Shown here piece after piece: positions 52,584 to 63,162 of a stretch of 64,000 nt of DNA; positions within the stretch are counted from its first letter, which is position 1; the number at the start of each line of letters is the position of its first letter. Source of the DNA: Pseudovirgaria hyperparasitica (Eukaryota; Ascomycota; Dothideomycetes; Acrospermales; Acrospermaceae); assembly GCF_010093815.1 (NCBI RefSeq), contig NW_022985563.1:437446-501445 (forward strand), written 5' to 3'. Both the position numbers and the translations under genes were made by a program. Under the pieces are notes generated by a model. That model worked only from the letters and a program-made list of their open reading frames with translations. It ran no database searches and had not been told where the DNA came from.

Positions 52584-55500
52584 CTACTCCTGGAGGCTCT
52601 CATCCCATCCACCGCGCTCCATCAGGAAGCCTTCTACACGCTCTCGACACTCCTCCAAGCCCGTCCCTAGCGCATCTCGCCACTGTCCCTCTACCACCTC
52701 AACCTTCTCCTTCAAATCCAGTGTCAGTCTCGCCTCTTCATCTTGCCTAATGGCTTGCATCTCGGCTTCCACCGTCGCATGATCTTCCCCGGCCATATGT
52801 CTTTGCATCTCTAGCAGACGTGTACTGGCAGCCATCACGCCATTCTTGACCTCATGAAGGAGGCAGAATAGATTTGTCTGCGATTCGATGAATTGATACG
52901 CAGACTTCCTTGCATGATCGAGCAGCGAGTACAAATACTGCATAGGAAAGTCGTAGTAGGACGGATTTTCGCTGTACTCCTGAAGTGGGATCAAGATCTG
53001 AAAATCCTCAAGATCCTGCGGTACCTTTTGGACCACGGTAAGAAGTCCCGGAGCTATGTCCCAGAAGGCAGATAGCTGATCCTCCACACCGCGAGATACG
53101 TTCGCCTCTACGATCCTGAGGAATTCTTCAAAGCGTCTGAGGGTGTCTTTCTCGAATCCGACCTTGCGCTCTTGTGCATCTTTGGTAAAGAAGGCATCGA
53201 CCTCTTTGGCCTTATCTTGATTGCCTCCCATATCGTATGGGATCAGTACGTACTTCTTGTAGTATTCGTCTCGCTCTCGCTCAACTTCAAACAGATCCCG
53301 ATGAAGTTGCTCGCGCACCTCGAAAAGCCACTTTAGAAGAGTCAATTTCTCGAGTAGCTCTGGTTGCTCATCTCCTTCTTCCTGCGTTTGATTGGGATTT
53401 GACTCATGCGCTAGATCCTTCCTCAGATGATCAATTGAGGCTGTAGCCTTGGTGACTCTCTCTGAAAGCAACGCATTCAATGGGCCGTATACTTCTTTTT
53501 TATAGCCGTCGAATTCTGCCTTTGCGCATTGCTGGCTACGCTGCACTTCTTGACTGTCGAAATTGGCTTCTGCTTTGGCTGCATCGGCAAAGCTCATATG
53601 TCCCGAACGTATTTGGTCCTGTATATCGAAACGGAGATGGTTCCGTCGTTCTGCTGCTGCTGTGCGCTCTTGCTCTCGAGCTGACGCTACCCGGGATTTG
53701 AACTCATCTTTAATTGGGTTCACACTATCGAAATCGCTCAAGCTGCGTAGAACAGCACGAATAGAGGCTAAATCAGGATGGTTATTGTTGACTGCGGGGT
53801 GGTGACGAGGGTATGGCGGTGGAAGGGTGACTAGCCGAGAAACGTCAAGTTTATATGGGTCTGGAGTCGCTGGTGCAGAGTGGGTGAAGAACTGGTATGA
53901 GTGCGCAGATTGCGGGAGCTGTTGTTCGTGTAGGCCGAACTTCTCTGGCGGATACTCATTCGGACCAAGACCTGCATAGTCAATGCTAGGCCCTGGAGTA
54001 CCACTATACGGTGGTGTGCTCTCTCCATCCCACTGGAGATGTTCGCGAACTTCCTTGGGAAGACCCATATACTTTGACTCACGCTTCGATCGTTCTAGCT
54101 TCTTACCGCCTCTGCCTACTGATCCATTGGCGCTTTCTTCCCACCATCGACTGGCGGACCGTCCTCGAGAATCTTGCTCGTCTGGTACAGTGCTCACTGC
54201 CATACTTGGTATGGGTGATAGGCATGGTTGGAACCCTGTGTGATGCGGGTTCTCCCCACGGCTCTGTTGACTCGAAACACTCGCTGGTGAGTCTGGCTCA
54301 CCGCGGGCAAACGTTGTCTTCGTAACTGCTGGGCTAGGGGTTGGGAAAGGAGAGGAAGGTGTCGCAGACCGCCAATGAGATGCTGATAGAGGTGCCGTCT
54401 GGCTAGGGGTAGCGGATCGCCGTCCTGTGCCATTATATGAACGCCACATGTCCCGTGTAAGGTCGAAAATTTCGCTAGCCATGCTATCAAATGCCGCTGA
54501 ATATTGATCACGCCGTAATCGAGATTCTGCAACAATAAATTCGGCAAACATTTCAAGACGCTCTTGGTCGGTTTGAGCATTCCTTTCCCTGTCAACAAAA
54601 ATCCGATGCCTCTCGATAGCAGCTTCGGCGAAGAGGGCACCTTCTGAAGACTTAGGTCGGTTTATGGCACCAGCAATGGCCGTAGGTGTTTTCGTCATAC
54701 CAGCAGAAGGTGGACGAAATGGCGAGAGTGGAGCCTGCATCGAAATATCCTCATTGGGAACATGGAGAATGTGCGATATAGGTCGATCCAAGGCATGTAG
54801 CCTCGGTACCCCAAGTCCGGATGCGGAAGGCTCCATATGTTGCGATATGGGTGGTGTAGGAAGCGCTTTTGGAGGCACTGCCGGATTTACGGATCTTCCC
54901 TGTACCGCTTTCCCGGAGGCCTTGTCTACAGTTGGGGAGAATGGAGGAGTCGGCGCAAAAGACTCTGGCGACATCACTCTGGCCGATGGGTCTGCAGTCC
55001 GGGGCGTGGAATGAGACGATGACGGTTCGGCTTCAAGAGAGCTCTTCTTCGTCAGAAACCCTGGTGATGGCATCCCTCTGCTGCCTGCGCTCCTCGGTGT
55101 ACCCTTTGTGATGGTACGTCTCCGGCTAAGAGCGCTACCTATCGAGTCTAAAACTAAATCTGCAGGTTTGGCAGATGTGGATGGGCTGGCAGCTTGTTGC
55201 ATGTCACGAGCCCAGGGATTATTGTTTTGCTCAACGGCCGTCGGAGGCTCCCCAATGCGCTCTCTCGCAGCTCGGCTTTCATTCCTGCGTTCTCTAATTC
55301 CTCTGGCGCTTGGATCACGTTTGGCTGTATTACGGTCCAGCACACTAGGGAACACGTGTGCGGTGTGAGGCTCAGAAATTCGGCTCCCTGAAGCTGTACT
55401 TCCTTCGCCATTAGTATTGGAGTTCCAGTCCGAGCCTGTAACGGAAGTTCCAGTCTCAAGACGAAGGCCTCTTGCAGCGGGTGACTTTGAACGCCTTCGA

Positions 55501-56846
55501 GCGTCTTCCTCAACCCAATCCGCGGGCGTTGGCGGTACAGGTCCAAGCATTGTGCCTGTTTGAGGTGGTCTTCTAGTAGGGGGCCCAGGAAGAGGGATTG
55601 TGCCTCCAGCGGCGGATGAGGAGGAAGGAAAGTGATCTGGTGTCCTACTCATACTCTGTGACCGCGAATTGGTCGGTGGTGGTGGACCTGGAGGTGGTGG
55701 AGGCAGAGCCGCCCCAGGAGCTGAAGCCTGCACGGGAGACTCCGTACTACCACTTCTCCTAGACGGCCCGGCGATGCCAATTGCACCAGTGGATGCAGCC
55801 CTCCTCGCTGCAGGTGCTCGAACGTCCATGTTATAGAATTCACGCTCGTTGATGATGTGCTGGGTGCCTCGACTGGGTCCTCAATTAGTCGTCATACCTA
55901 TCAAAGAATCCAACTTCACAACGGCACTTACTGCTGCAAGTCTGGCGTCCGCATTAGGGCATCTGTAGTACCTTGCCGGAGTGATTCCATGTTGCTCGGC
56001 CCTGCTATTATCTCTGGTGCCTTATCTTTATGCCTGGACATCAGACTGAAGAAGCCTCGGTCGCCTTTGGGGCGTGACGAAGACCTATCTCGCCCGGGCG
56101 GCGGAGGGAAAGATGCACCAGCCAGTTGTGGGGTTGTATGTGCCGATATAGTTCTGTTTTGCTCCGGCGTCCTCGAACTGGATGCAACCGCTGGGCTATA
56201 TTCAGCGTGCTGCGATCCCCCAGGCGACATAATGTTCTGTACAGATGCAAAGACATTGTTCGCGTTGTGGTGGGTCGGGCTGGCAGCATGGGCCATATTG
56301 GGAGAATATGGAGGAGGAGGAGAGGGCATTGAAGCTATATTATTCACAATCAGCATTTTCCCAGCGTCTACGCATGAGGATCGGCGACATACCCTCCATT
56401 CCTGTCAGACCATCCGACCTCACAGTAGATTGAGGACTTGACCGTGGCATGAAAGTTCCACTGGTAGGGCCATGCCTCCCCCATTCTTGTGGATTGTACG
56501 ACGACACCATGGCTGTCGCGCTCCGGCAGCTCATAGGCGACTGGGAGCCTCTCGAGGAAGACGACGGCAGCGTGGTAGCAGAGGCTGGCGAGAAGACTGA
56601 CGGGGTATATGGGGAAAGCGGAGTGTTTATGGAGACGGCCGAGGCGGGTGTAGGAGGTTGTAAGAAAGTCCCGTGCTGCGCGCCTATTGTGGTAGTTATG
56701 GAAGGCGGCTGTTGTACAGCTATGCGCCGTAATGGAGACGGCTGTGCGGTACGATACAACGGCGATGAAGATATGGCAGGAGAGGTAGGATTAGGCGGGG
56801 GACCTGGAGGAGGAGGATAGACATTCCTTTGACTAGCGCCGTGCAT
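52584..56846 (-). CDS. Conserved-looking proline-rich / coiled-coil protein of unknown function
   Basis: Three exons, 56846-56393, 56334-55932 and 55872-52584, give 1381 aa; introns are 58 and 59 nt and the phases (1, 2) close. I do not recognise the family. The first 900 or so residues are low-complexity and disordered: MHGASQRNVYPPPPGPPPNP, many PPPP and Ser/Thr-Pro runs, and RS-like patches. A short ordered helical block lies inside (SEGALFAEAAIERHRIFVDR, then EMFAEFIVAESRLRRDQY and FDSMASEIFDLTRDMW). From about residue 960 the protein is long-helical and charged (FKSRVASAREQERTAAAERR; LEKLTLLKWLFEVREQLHRD; LYSLLDHARKSAYQFIESQ). This suggests coiled coils and a scaffold or cytoskeletal role, but that is inference. 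The third exon's acceptor was chosen by phase; the more obvious CCCAG 15 nt on breaks the frame. Confidence 0.75.
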
Positions 56847-58030: not shown

Positions 58031-59221
58031 TTATTTCTGGTACTTGTTGTAGGTGTCAATCACCTTTTGCACTTCGTCATAACTGCCCAGGAAGATGCCG
58101 GACCGATCGTGAATATGCTCGGGCGGAACCTCAAGCATGCGCTGCATCTTACTATTGACAGCCTGACCACCAGCTATACATTCGTTAGCAAGCGGCATCC
58201 TATAAGCCGAGACGGAACTCACCATTTTCAAAAACCATAGCCATAGGAGCGCATTCGTACAGAATACGAAGCTTTCCCTTGGGGCTCTTCTTGTCTGCTG
58301 GGTACGCAAAGATACCTCCGTACAATAGAGTACGGTAAGCATCTGCCACCATGGAACCGATGTATCTCGCGCTATATGGCTTGCTCGATTCAGATCCCTT
58401 GAGGCTGTTGACCCACTCCTTGATCGGCTCTTCCCAGTAAAGACTGTTACCCTCATTCACCGAATAGATCGCGCGCTGCTTCGGAACCTTCATGTCGGGA
58501 TGGGTCATGATGAACTCGCCCAGCGCATTGTCCATGGTGAAGCCAGTGACAGGACCGTCCTTTGTGGTAATGACTAATTGCGTCGAGGCTCCATACATGG
58601 TAAATCCACTAGCCACCAGCTCCGTTCCAGGTTTCAGGATCTCTTCTTTTGTCCCCTGCGCCCCTGGCTCGAGTCTATAGATGCCGAAGATTGTACCGAC
58701 CGATACACCTGCGTCTAGATTGGACGAACCGTCGATAGGATCGCAAACGACAGCATATCTGGCATCTGGAAATTCATCAAACTTGATGACCTCCTCCTCC
58801 TCCTCCGAGACCAACATGCGTACTCTTGCACAGCTGCGCATCGCGCTGATGAACAGATCATTTCCAATCACATCAAGCTTCTTCTGATCGTCGCCCGTGG
58901 TATTTGATGAGCCCGCAAGACCAGTGAGCTACAGGCACTGTTAGCATCATGTCCGCACAGCTGCAGACTGTACGACGTACGTTGATGAGGGTAGCACGTC
59001 GAATGTAATATGCTATGCTTTTGAATGCAAATTGTAGGGCGTGGCAGAGTAACCTGAGCTCAGTGGTCAGTCTGTAGAACTGACTCAAGATGAGCGTCAA
59101 CATACGTGAAGTCTCCAGTGGCTTCTTTGTGTTTGGTTTGCTCCTCGGTCAGGAAGCGCGTGAGAGTGACAATGTCGGTGTTGACCTTTTCCGTCGGAGC
59201 TCCATTTCCGTTCGTTGCCAT
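58031..59221 (-). CDS. fbp1: Fructose-1,6-bisphosphatase
   Basis: Four exons, 59221-59106, 59053-58981, 58928-58223 and 58173-58031, give 345 aa; introns are 52, 52 and 49 nt. The enzyme hydrolyses fructose-1,6-bisphosphate to fructose-6-phosphate, the committed cytosolic step of gluconeogenesis. The N-terminus carries the allosteric-site segment VTLTRFL and GLAGSSNTTGDDQKKLDV. The Mg2+ site is intact (VCDPIDGSSNLDAG), as is the signature GKLRILYECAPMAM with the following ENGGQAV. The C-terminus ends IFLGSYDEVQKVIDTYNKYQ. Length equals yeast Fbp1 within a few residues. Residue 2 is Ala rather than Pro. A CCGN7CCG motif lies 282 bp upstream of the ATG. Confidence 0.97.
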
Positions 59222-60199
59222 GATTGCGAGTTTAATGGTCGTTGGGGTCTTTCAGGGAAAAGAGAGAGAGGAGAAAGCGATGATATTAAGATTTAGTACA
59301 GATGTCAAAGTGAAGCTTCAGATGATTCAGAAGAGCCTCGGGTGTGCGGATTAATCTGCTACGGCCTTGGAGTTTCTGCAATTACTTCAAGTATGTGCGA
59401 GGTGAGTTATGGAGGTTGGTATGGACCCGATCGTGGTGTAATGAAGAAGCAGCGAGCCGATTGTCTCATGATTAAGTATCCCGAGGTCAAACTTGTACCA
59501 GGCCGTGATTTGCCGTTCTCGTGAGAGCGGAGTGTACTGCTACAGAGTGCCAGATGACGACGATAGGTGGAGCGTTCTGATTGCGGGGCAGATTAGCTCC
59601 TTGAGGTCTCTGCAGTGCTTTCTCCCGACATCTCCCGCTATTCGGCCGGCTTCATAGCGATAAATGGCGCATCGTCTTGAGACAGCGACGGTCATGTATC
59701 AATATCATAGATGAGAAGACATTGGAGTGAAAGGAGTCCGCCATTGCTACCCTAGCACCACTCAAGTTTAATCACAGACATCGGGATCAAGTGCTCGCGT
59801 GTTCATGACCTCCAGAAGCGGTAAGGTCTGATCGACTCGGCACAGCACCGTCCTGCTGGGAAAAAGACTACATGAGCGTGCCAACCATTAGCATATTCTG
59901 TGTCAGCAGGCTCATCGATTCGTGGAATGAGGTTGGCATAACGATTATTGCTGAGAAGTCATTGGGATTCAGGCTACAACAAAGCCAACGTGGGTGTTGG
60001 ATCATTTCAGGGAGAGCCCTGGCAGGGAGAAGTGTGTAAGCTAGGCTCGAAAGAGCAAGGGAGCTATGGCCCAGCTAGCCTGCGCCGGGGAACAGCCGTA
60101 GTTCAACCGTAGTAGCGAAACTTTTTCTCGGTTACCAATTCGTCTACAAAGCTCTTCTTCACCAGCCCATCTTCAATACACATCTCGCCATGCAACTAT
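59222..60199. promoter_or_regulatory. Divergent promoter region, FBP1 / snoRNA host gene
   Basis: About 1 kb separates the FBP1 start codon from the first recognisable splice donor of the plus-strand snoRNA host. The host's transcription start must lie in its right-hand part, probably after 60080, but no exact signal is seen. The left half holds the CCGN7CCG site. Confidence 0.5.
59503..59515 (+). promoter_or_regulatory. CCGN7CCG motif (AcuK/AcuM type)
   Basis: CCG, seven bases, CCG at 59503-59515. This is the spacing of the binding site described for the paired zinc-cluster activators AcuK and AcuM, which control gluconeogenic genes including fructose-1,6-bisphosphatase in Aspergillus. The match is exact, but a motif with six fixed bases turns up by chance about once in 2 kb. 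Confidence 0.45.
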
Positions 60200-60224
60200 G
60201 TAAGTACAGCTACTTCTCGTCTTT

Positions 60225-60312
60225 CCTTTCTGATGATTTGTACAACCGCAAACTAGAGTCTTTGACCTCCAAAGAGGAATGAAACTCATCGCACACGTCA
60301 GTCTGACTACTG
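60225..60312 (+). ncRNA. snR78: Box C/D snoRNA, snR78 orthologue (25S Um2421)
   Basis: C box CTGATGA at 60230-60236 and D box CTGA at 60303-60306. The guide CAAACTAGAGTC (60249-60260) pairs over 12 nt with the 25S segment GACUCUAGUUUG. With D' TTGA at 60262-60265, the fifth base upstream (A60257) faces U2421, the site of yeast snR78. No second guide target was identified before the D box. First of six in the host gene. Confidence 0.92.
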
Positions 60313-60501
60313 TCGCTTCACGAAAACATTTTTTCTATTACTGCAAAGTCGTCAACTGACAATTTCTCTAGTTCGCATCCGTGACGCGTCGACTTCCTCG
60401 CGCTGATGTGATCTGACAGATCTCTTCGCATCTATTAGGTGCGAAGAGTATGAGCTTTGTAAATGTAAGTCTCTGATACCCTGCCATGATAATATTTACC
60501 C

Positions 60502-60596
60502 TCGCGATGATGACGTGTGAGCATTGCTCGCTGGAAATTACCGACCGAGTAGACTTCGGTCTCTCTGAGGCACAACAAAGGCTGTATCTGAGCTTC
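60502..60596 (+). ncRNA. snR77: Box C/D snoRNA, snR77 orthologue (18S Um578)
   Basis: C box ATGATGA at 60507-60513. The guide AATTACCG (60536-60543) pairs with 18S CGGUAAUU in the conserved 530-loop region. D' CCGA at 60545-60548 places U578 at the fifth position. The helix is only 8 bp, then a mismatch, so this is the weakest of the six on pairing alone; order and position support it. Two D box candidates exist, 60565-60568 and 60588-60591; the second puts D 64 nt before the 3' splice site like its neighbours. Confidence 0.82.
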
Positions 60597-60707
60597 AACT
60601 ATGTCACCTACTGTTCTGCATAATTGGTTGACGGTGTACTGACAAGATGAATTAGGTCGCAACAAGGCTCGCTCTTATACGGTATGGCCATCTTCTGCTC
60701 CTCGAAT

Positions 60708-60800
60708 ACTACGTGATGAATGGCACTGGGCTCCGAACTCTAGAATGAAAAGGATATGCCATACTGCGACAGGCCTAGAAAACCTCGTCCACTGATATCT
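60708..60800 (+). ncRNA. snR76: Box C/D snoRNA, snR76 orthologue (25S Cm2197)
   Basis: C box GTGATGA at 60713-60719 and D box CTGA at 60792-60795. The guide GCACTGGGC (60723-60731) pairs with 25S GCCCAGUGC. D' CCGA at 60733-60736 sets the fifth base opposite C2197, the yeast snR76 site. The second guide region before D has no target I can name. Confidence 0.91.
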
Positions 60801-60930
60801 GCCTTGTGTCTGCGACATGTCGACGGTGTTTATTATTCATGGAACTGACGTCGCGTCAGGCATCGCGTTGAACACACCGCGCATGAAACCTCTTTACAGT
60901 GTAAGTCATGTGCACCACCTCCACTCCTCC

Positions 60931-61022
60931 TCTACGTGATGAACATCTAGATGACGAGTCTTATCTGGATTTTCCAATGCAGACACCACTTTTTTAATAA
61001 CCATTCATGCCAACTGAAATGA
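60931..61022 (+). ncRNA. snR75: Box C/D snoRNA, snR75 orthologue (25S Gm2288)
   Basis: C box GTGATGA at 60936-60942 and D box CTGA at 61014-61017. The guide TAGATGACGAG (60948-60958) pairs over 11 nt with 25S CUCGUCAUCUA. D' CTTA at 60960-60963 points to G2288, the yeast snR75 site. A second guide, CCATTCATGC just before the D box, pairs over 10 nt with 25S GCAUGAAUGG and would point to about C2308. Confidence 0.9.
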
Positions 61023-61124
61023 AACTGTTCTCCTCGGCCTTTATCGCTCTTCAAGCACTGACGCTGACATGTCGAAAGAAGTCTAGACCATTGGTGTAAA
61101 GTATCTCTCCTTCCGATTGCGCGC

Positions 61125-61210
61125 CTTCGATGATGATTCGACTTAAAAATGACAAGCATATGTCCAAGCCACCTCGGTGGTGTTGACGAGACTGTCTCAT
61201 CTGACTGTCG
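61125..61210 (+). ncRNA. snR74: Box C/D snoRNA, snR74/U27 orthologue (18S Am28)
   Basis: C box ATGATGA at 61130-61136 and D box CTGA at 61201-61204. The guide GACAAGCATATG (61151-61162) pairs over 12 nt with 18S CAUAUGCUUGUC near the 5' end. The degenerate D' CCAA at 61164-61167 places A28 fifth, the site of yeast snR74 and animal U27. Confidence 0.88.
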
Positions 61211-61354
61211 TGCGGCATGATCGGCGAGCTTGCCAGCAGGTCTGAACCTCTGACTGACTGCGCATCAGATTTGTGGTTGAACATTACGAGCTGGATGTAT
61301 TCTACCAAGGTAAGCCATCTCCGCATGACGTCCCCTTGTTCAACTTTTACACCT

Positions 61355-61448
61355 TCCCAATGATGATTTACTCTATCTCACGACGGTCAACTGAGCTACA
61401 AGTTAGCTTTGACGAAAGTGCCTGTGACAGGGCTTTGATCTGATCTTG
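61355..61448 (+). ncRNA. snR73: Box C/D snoRNA, snR73 orthologue (25S Cm2959)
   Basis: C box ATGATGA at 61360-61366, perfect D' CTGA at 61391-61394 and D box CTGA at 61440-61443. The guide TCTCACGACGGTC (61376-61388) pairs over 13 nt with 25S GACCGUCGUGAGA (one terminal wobble beyond). The fifth base faces C2959, the yeast snR73 site. Confidence 0.93.
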
Positions 61449-61509
61449 ACGCGCTTAGTCATGACTTTCATGCACTTGCTGCGATGGACTGTGCTGACAC
61501 TCTCGCTAG

Positions 61510-62445
61510 GTACGTACAGTGTGGCAGTGCATTGTGATGTTCCCTCCCTCGTCCCCGTCCTTGTCCTCGTCTTCGCCTCGTAGAGCACATGGTGCCATGA
61601 CTGGGCCGAAGTGGAAACGAGCTGTGACTGTTCTGATGAGCGAGTATTCGTATTAGTCTTAAGTTTTTAATCTAAATGTAATCTTGTTATTGCGAACCCA
61701 GCAGTGTTCAAGGTGCTTTCTCGTCAGTGGCATCGTGCAGTGAATGTGGTTGATCCTATGGCTTGTGGTGACATACCTGATACGCAGGACAGCTGGTTTA
61801 GATTTCGGAAAGGCCCGCTTATACCCAGTTTTCCAACCATACTTCCATCGTTACCTTCGAAAACCCAGCTTGCCACAGTAATGTTTCAAGCAACACGACC
61901 AGTGGTGTCAGTGGGTGTATATCTTGCTATGAGCTTTGTCTCCTACATCAGCTGAAGGTTGACTCCGCCACTTGAGGGCCGACATTGTATAGCCAGCGTA
62001 GACATTACTTCATGCGAGGAATGACGCAGTGGAGGCCCATAAGTATGCAGCGCCACAGAGCTTGATTCCTGGACCCTGACTCGATTGATCCAACGGCGGA
62101 TACGCGGATAGAAATCGAACGAGTTCCAGGCAGCTAGAGGCTCGTTGTGGACCCACAAGGCACATCAATGAACACGATCTAAAGCGTTCAGAAGGCAAGC
62201 CCGAGCGATGTTGCGCCGCGCGAGCGAGGAGAGAGCGCATAGATAAACGAAGGGTTTATCCAAAGCGGCAGTGCAATCAGGGCAGGACAGCTGAGCAAAG
62301 AAGCGAGCAAAAGAGCGCGTGCCTACCTGTGTTTCCCTCTGATATCTATATCCTATATTTTCTCGACCCTTGTTTCTGTCTACTCGTCCAGAATATCTGT
62401 CTATTCGAATTATACCCACCGTACCGCATCTGACTAAGAGCAAAC
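61510..62445. other. Intergenic region, snoRNA host 3' side / WW gene promoter
   Basis: 0.94 kb. The guide expected for yeast snR72 (25S Am876) was searched for here and not found. A CTGATGA word at 61632-61638 is not followed by a usable guide and D box. The right part should be the WW gene promoter; a pyrimidine-rich stretch precedes its ATG. Confidence 0.45.
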
Positions 62446-63162
62446 ATGCCCTTCTTCAAGCAAGTGACTGCAGGACTGAAAGACCTCAAGGCCTCCTACG
62501 ATCGCAAGAACGCGAATAAAGAAGGGAAGAAGCCTGACTATGGGACTGGCAGTGACCCTCAAGCGATAGCCCAGCAACCGTTCGGCCACGGGCAGGCCTA
62601 CGGCCAGCCATTCGGAAACCCTCCACAGCAGAACGGCGGTGACTATGCTCCACAGCCATCACAAGGACCACAACCTCAGGCCCAGGGACCGCCAGGCCAG
62701 AGCGTGCTTCCCGTAGGCTGGATCACGCAGTTCGACCAGAGCAGCCAGCGGTGGTACTTTGTCGAGCAAGCGACTGGCCGCACGCAATGGGAGGCACCGG
62801 CTTCTTCTGCGCCTTTTCCTCATCTTCAACAAGAACAACAACGACAACAACAGCAACAATTCATACCGCAACCCGCTGGTGCACATGACATTCCGCCTCC
62901 TCCTCCGGGACCAGCAGCAGCCGAACGCGGACAAGGCGGGAAGAAATACGTCAAGCAGGCCGCGCACCTGATCGTCGGCGCGCACAAGAAGAAGAAGGAG
63001 AAGAAGAAGCAGAAGAAACAGGCGCAGCAGCACGGCGGTGGTGCTGCGCATGAGCATGGTGGCCAGGAGGAAGAATACGAGGAAGGGGAGGAGTATGAGG
63101 AAGGGGAGGAGGGGGAAGAATATGAGGAAGAGGAGGCGTATGAGTATGAAGATTATGAGTAG
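62446..63162 (+). CDS. WW-domain protein with charged low-complexity tail
   Basis: A single exon of 238 aa. Residues 1-30 are a short basic helical head (MPFFKQVTAGLKDLKASYDR), followed by a Gln/Pro/Gly linker. A WW domain spans about 88-118 (LPVGWITQFDQSSQRWYFVE, with the second Trp and Pro in RTQWEAP). Such domains bind proline-rich ligands. A Gln run encoded by CAA repeats, a PPPPPGP motif, a lysine-rich patch (HKKKKEKKKQKKQ) and an acidic Glu/Tyr tail follow. The role is unknown; the domain alone implies protein-protein contact. The start ATG is the first in the frame. Confidence 0.85.
   Translation: MPFFKQVTAGLKDLKASYDRKNANKEGKKPDYGTGSDPQAIAQQPFGHGQAYGQPFGNPPQQNGGDYAPQPSQGPQPQAQGPPGQSVLPVGWITQFDQSSQRWYFVEQATGRTQWEAPASSAPFPHLQQEQQRQQQQQFIPQPAGAHDIPPPPPGPAAAERGQGGKKYVKQAAHLIVGAHKKKKEKKKQKKQAQQHGGGAAHEHGGQEEEYEEGEEYEEGEEGEEYEEEEAYEYEDYE

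Follow-up and report, generated by a model that had tools for sequence, protein, structure and literature searches.

A box C/D snoRNA cluster in the predicted introns of a probable non-coding host gene of the fungus Pseudovirgaria hyperparasitica

Introduction

The snR72-78 polycistron of Saccharomyces cerevisiae has no introns. In the ascomycete Pseudovirgaria hyperparasitica (Dothideomycetes), six box C/D snoRNAs that share order and target sites with this polycistron are arranged head to tail on the plus strand, between 60.23 and 61.45 kb of a 64,000-nucleotide stretch of contig NW_022985563.1 (positions 437,446 to 501,445; the whole of this 64-kb stretch is hereafter called the window), and here six introns are predicted where yeast has none. 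What kind of gene is this, and how does its layout relate to that of the same snoRNAs in other fungi? A preliminary description, prepared from the letters of the DNA, had proposed orthologues of snR78 to snR73, one per intron, within a host that lacks a credible ORF. We have followed up this proposal with covariance models, guide pairing against rRNA, splice signals and the literature on fungal snoRNA genes.

Results

The preliminary description had called for an Rfam model search over this region. When the whole window was scanned at gathering threshold, four matches were returned, all at the locus and all on the plus strand, each covering the very interval that is listed for the corresponding snoRNA in Table 1: the snR75 model (75.3 bits against a cutoff of 40), Afu_513, which corresponds to snR76 (68.8 bits against 48), the snR73 model (52.9 bits against 37) and, with a margin of 1.2 bits, Afu_300, which corresponds to snR77 (41.2 bits against 40). 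In a permissive scan that followed, SNORD27, the animal relative of snR74, appeared under its cutoff at 61125-61188 (E 0.055). For the snR78 model, the match in intron 1 amounts to 14.4 bits (cutoff 48; E 8.3), a score that is insignificant by itself. Within the same intron, the guide letters CAAACTAGAGT are identical to those of the Rfam snR78 consensus, and the guide letters of the Rfam snR78 model, CAAACUAGAGU, are found unchanged. For snR78 and snR74, neither of which has an Rfam match above cutoff, the assignment is drawn from the guide, the boxes and the position.

Five of the six snoRNAs have RTGATGA as box C and snR78 has CTGATGA, and in all six approximately 70-80 nt lie between box C and box D. 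The D' box, which is often degenerate in box C/D snoRNAs, is the canonical CTGA in snR73 and takes the forms TTGA, CCGA, CCGA, CTTA and CCAA in the other five. The boxes alone prove little, because the window has similar C-D pairs outside the locus: the count of RTGATGA...CTGA pairs with this spacing is nine on the plus strand (five of them at the locus) and five on the minus strand (none at the locus).

Table 1. Positions in the window of the snoRNAs, predicted introns and joined host exons.
Feature	Position	Strand	Details
Host exon 1	60080..60199	+	joined exons; 5' end chosen by analyst; first ATG at 60190 opens 14-aa frame
Predicted intron 1	60200..60371	+	GTAAGT...CTAG, branch motif CTGAC
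snR78 orthologue, box C/D	60231..60306	+	guide 60252-60260 (with L006 rRNA); site 25S U2421
Host exon 2 (93 nt)	60372..60464	+	joined exons; predicted 12-bp hairpin
Predicted intron 2	60465..60655	+	GTAAGT...TTAG
snR77 orthologue, box C/D (Rfam Afu_300)	60500..60593	+	guide 60536-60543; site 18S U578
Host exon 3 (26 nt)	60656..60681	+	joined exons
Predicted intron 3	60682..60859	+	GTATGG...TCAG
snR76 orthologue, box C/D (Rfam Afu_513)	60709..60797	+	guide 60723-60731; site 25S C2197
Host exon 4 (41 nt)	60860..60900	+	joined exons
Predicted intron 4	60901..61086	+	GTAAGT...CTAG
snR75 orthologue, box C/D	60934..61019	+	guide 60948-60958; site 25S G2288
Host exon 5 (14 nt)	61087..61100	+	joined exons
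Predicted intron 5	61101..61268	+	GTATCT...TCAG
snR74 orthologue, box C/D	61128..61204	+	guide 61151-61162 (12 nt); site 18S A28
Host exon 6 (41 nt)	61269..61309	+	joined exons
Predicted intron 6	61310..61509	+	GTAAGC...CTAG
snR73 orthologue, box C/D	61356..61445	+	guide 61376-61388 (13 nt); site 25S C2959
Host last exon	61510..61700	+	joined exons; 3' end chosen by analyst

The guides were paired with rRNA of other eukaryotes: for the large subunit, eukaryotic segments from fetched contigs (L005, L001, L006 and L007) were aligned to the Rfam LSU consensus, and for 18S we used the sequences printed in PMC8125830. Against these rRNAs, Watson-Crick pairing extends over 9, 8, 9, 11, 12 and 13 nt from snR78 to snR73, and the nucleotide at D'+5 is the target site listed in Table 1 in all six snoRNAs, as the preliminary description had predicted from the D'+5 rule. 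In a 6 x 6 cross-test the longest pairing of each snoRNA was at its own site, at 8-13 nt, versus 3-7 nt elsewhere. When length was instead scored against any segment, it was reached by 22, 57 and 11 of 100 shuffles for snR78, snR77 and snR76, respectively, and by 1, 0 and 0 of 100 for snR75, snR74 and snR73. Pairing length alone was rejected as proof of a guide, since snR78, snR77 and snR76 are not distinct from shuffles against any segment, and because the length-only test fails for these three of the six guides we used a test anchored to the site: among 5000 dinucleotide shuffles per snoRNA, the numbers that paired at the site over at least the observed length were 16, 13, 11, 1, 0 and 0 from snR78 to snR73. 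It is the combination of site, order and Rfam that makes the case for the guides. The six head-to-tail box C/D snoRNAs are borne out by Rfam, guides, boxes and position, and the identities and the order snR78-77-76-75-74-73 that had been proposed for them stand on the Rfam matches and the guide pairing at six sites.

At the snR78 site, the L006 rRNA has other letters than fungal rRNA, with which the snR78 guide would presumably pair over 12 nt. The yeast site numbers used here (Table 1) follow the preliminary description. PMC3511168 numbers the snR75, snR73 and snR78 sites Gm2286, Cm2956 and Um2414, and this offset of a few bases probably reflects another reference numbering. As a separate observation on the rRNA sources, L001 to L004 are bacterial MAG records carrying a short 28S rDNA end; as a set they had no Rfam match at gathering threshold, and the L001 end alone matched. 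Insertion of R2-type elements of eukaryotic origin may account for these 28S ends.

Around each snoRNA one can draw a GT-AG intron, six in all, with a CTGAC motif close to its 3' end, and at the level of these predicted signals the proposed layout of one snoRNA per intron is supported. The end of box D lies 65, 64, 64, 69, 64 and 66 nt from the 3' splice site in introns 1 to 6 and 53, 51, 53, 50, 49 and 54 nt from the predicted branch A, where the value of 50 for intron 4 uses the second of two possible CTGAC motifs (with the first, the value would be 44). Box C lies at a variable distance from the 5' splice site, 27 to 50 nt across the six introns. In vertebrates, intronic snoRNAs are best placed approximately 50 nt from the branch point, on its upstream side (PMC8162545). 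By analogy, the near-constant spacing between box D and branch point suggests that snoRNP assembly may be coupled to splicing in this fungus as well, and the 49-54 nt found in all six predicted introns offers a simple prediction of such coupling in filamentous fungi.

Could the locus instead be a polycistron of the S. cerevisiae kind, unspliced and cut by an RNase III-like activity, with splice-like signals that are due to chance or are relics? The snoRNA order is the same as in the yeast cluster and would fit such a polycistron, yet all six units carry complete splice signals at regular spacing, and the wholly unspliced form is reported for S. cerevisiae and yeasts closely related to it, whereas Euascomycetes are described as fully intronic by Luo et al. 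(PMC3596301). We regard an unspliced transcript as highly improbable.

On the reading of the locus as a spliced host, the joined exons offer little to translate. With the transcript ends chosen as in Table 1, the first ATG opens a frame of 14 aa only, and the longest ATG frame, which starts at the exon 2-3 junction and extends into the last exon, has 65 aa and no Pfam match up to E 1, in agreement with the earlier claim that the host has no credible ORF. This 65-aa frame is what could be said for a host that encodes a conserved protein or peptide with the snoRNAs riding in its introns; however, its start is not the first ATG of the joined exons, it lacks a Pfam match, the internal exons measure only 14-93 nt, and the hosts of the cluster in other fungi are described as having no long ORFs (PMC3596301, PMC2780460), and we give a coding host very little credence. 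The length of the frame falls within the 159-267 bp range of ORFs reported for the Neurospora crassa hosts (PMC2780460). As a side observation, exon 2 is predicted to form a hairpin of 12 bp (z -2.29; a fold as good arose in 4 of 200 shuffles), in whose 3' arm a possible alternative AG acceptor sits next to the loop. Scans for bacterial-type promoters and terminators found nothing above chance, as expected for a fungus.

The first snoRNA may depart from its described relatives in one respect. According to Luo et al. (PMC3596301), snR78 is fused with snR72 into a double guide in all Euascomycetes studied, and CD5 of N. crassa guides both the snR78 and the snR72 sites (PMC2780460). Here, comparison with a segment of yeast rRNA revealed no second guide for the snR72 site in working position within the first snoRNA. 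Its second half (60281-60306) holds an 8-nt pairing (7 Watson-Crick pairs and one G-U) with the yeast snR72-site segment, but 16 nt separate the end of this stretch from box D, more than the usual rule allows. The stretch may be a fossil snR72 guide that has been displaced, or due to chance. That the fused snR78/72 guide lost its second function in this lineage, with approximately 12 nt now lying between the old snR72 guide and box D, is a speculative and rather unlikely scenario; if true, a fossil guide remains, and one rRNA site would be unmethylated or served elsewhere.

Least probable of all, and barely worth entertaining, is a decayed, non-functional copy of the cluster, with which the degenerate D' boxes of five of the six snoRNAs and the possible displaced snR72 guide would be compatible, whereas every one of the six units retains its box C core, D box, guide and splice signals, features that would not survive neutral decay.

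Discussion

We consider it very probable (roughly 95%) that this locus represents fungal snoRNA cluster I, in the intronic form that is usual for it, carried by one spliced host without a meaningful ORF. At the sequence level, the snoRNAs, their sites, their order and their splice signals are established; for transcription, splicing, debranching, trimming and methylation at the locus we infer by analogy that they would proceed as in related fungi. In Fusarium graminearum, for example, deletion of the debranching enzyme Dbr1 led to a reduction of five intronic snoRNAs (PMC9606315). In the mechanism that we propose, the host would be transcribed as a single non-coding RNA with six introns and then spliced, with a snoRNP assembling on each intron during splicing. 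After excision, each intron would be debranched, and exonucleases would trim it back until one box C/D snoRNP is left; each snoRNP would bring the methyltransferase to one conserved 2'-O position in 18S or 25S rRNA.

Yeast reportedly lost its introns in this cluster via lost splice signals, an account said to be that of Mitrovich et al. 2010. In animals, UHG and GAS5 are spliced non-coding hosts with one C/D snoRNA per intron, and the P. hyperparasitica locus shares with them a likeness of layout only. Phaeosphaeria nodorum, a fungus named below, is now called Parastagonospora nodorum.

In contrasting the locus with yeast, the preliminary description left the impression that an intronic form is unusual, and this part of it did not hold. 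The implied novelty fails because Luo et al. 2013 (PMC3596301) describe the same cluster across fungi: their cluster I (snR78-77-76-75-74-73-72) has the same snoRNAs in the same order, likewise in introns of non-coding hosts, the exons of which are poorly conserved. According to that study, cluster I is intronic throughout in Euascomycetes, Basidiomycota and the one zygomycete, and most of the cluster snoRNAs are intronic in other Hemiascomycetes and Archiascomycetes as well, whereas in S. cerevisiae and its close relatives all of them come from unspliced transcripts through decay of splice signals. The intronic form is the usual one in fungi, and that of yeast is interpreted as a derived state. 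Over three clusters, 323 of the 460 snoRNAs analysed there were predicted to be intronic and 83 introns were verified; snR78, snR75 and snR72 moved elsewhere in some Basidiomycota, and the species list includes Phaeosphaeria nodorum, a Dothideomycete (PMC3596301). The gene reported here is therefore real but ordinary, its layout having already been described in many fungi.

Closer comparison is offered by N. crassa, for which Liu et al. 2009 (PMC2780460) confirmed cluster host transcripts by RT-PCR. There, too, cluster I is intronic, in a UHG-like host that the authors liken to the animal UHG-type genes and whose ORFs have the lengths given above, and Table 1 of that study lists guides for the equivalent sites of snR78, snR76, snR75 and snR73. 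RT-PCR in N. crassa also shows alternative transcripts that lack exon 2 or exons 2 and 3 (PMC2780460), whereas the exons of P. hyperparasitica are drawn from the genomic letters. In Exophiala dermatitidis, four members of the cluster are named, snR73, snR76, snR78 and Afu_300, which occur together and have an RNA-seq expression profile, and a circularised region of 165 nt holds Afu_300 (PMC4463862). A wider survey of the fungal snoRNAome is that of Canzler et al. 2018, as cited in PMC8476143 and PMC9606315.

The locus is a further, clean case of an ancient non-coding gene in which the introns themselves are what the gene makes, and it reminds annotators that such genes can escape ORF-based pipelines.

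Flanking genes

Several protein-coding features lie near the cluster in the window. On the minus strand, 58200-58871 holds a piece of a fructose-1,6-bisphosphatase gene (Pfam PF00316 and PF18913), and 52584-55829 encodes a protein of 1081 aa with no Pfam match at E 0.001. For the latter, 720 relatives were found among 8000 candidates scored; among the best 120 of these 720, the top named relatives come from Patellaria atrata, Aplosporella and Coniosporium, and other classes score lower. Patellaria atrata is a Dothideomycete by its lineage, and Aplosporella, Coniosporium and the other top relatives are Dothideomycetes too. These matches point to a filamentous ascomycete of this class, or one near it, as the most likely source of the window, and they led us to reject a basidiomycete origin. 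On the plus strand, downstream of the cluster, 62446-63162 encodes a WW-domain protein with Gln-rich and Glu-Tyr-rich stretches.
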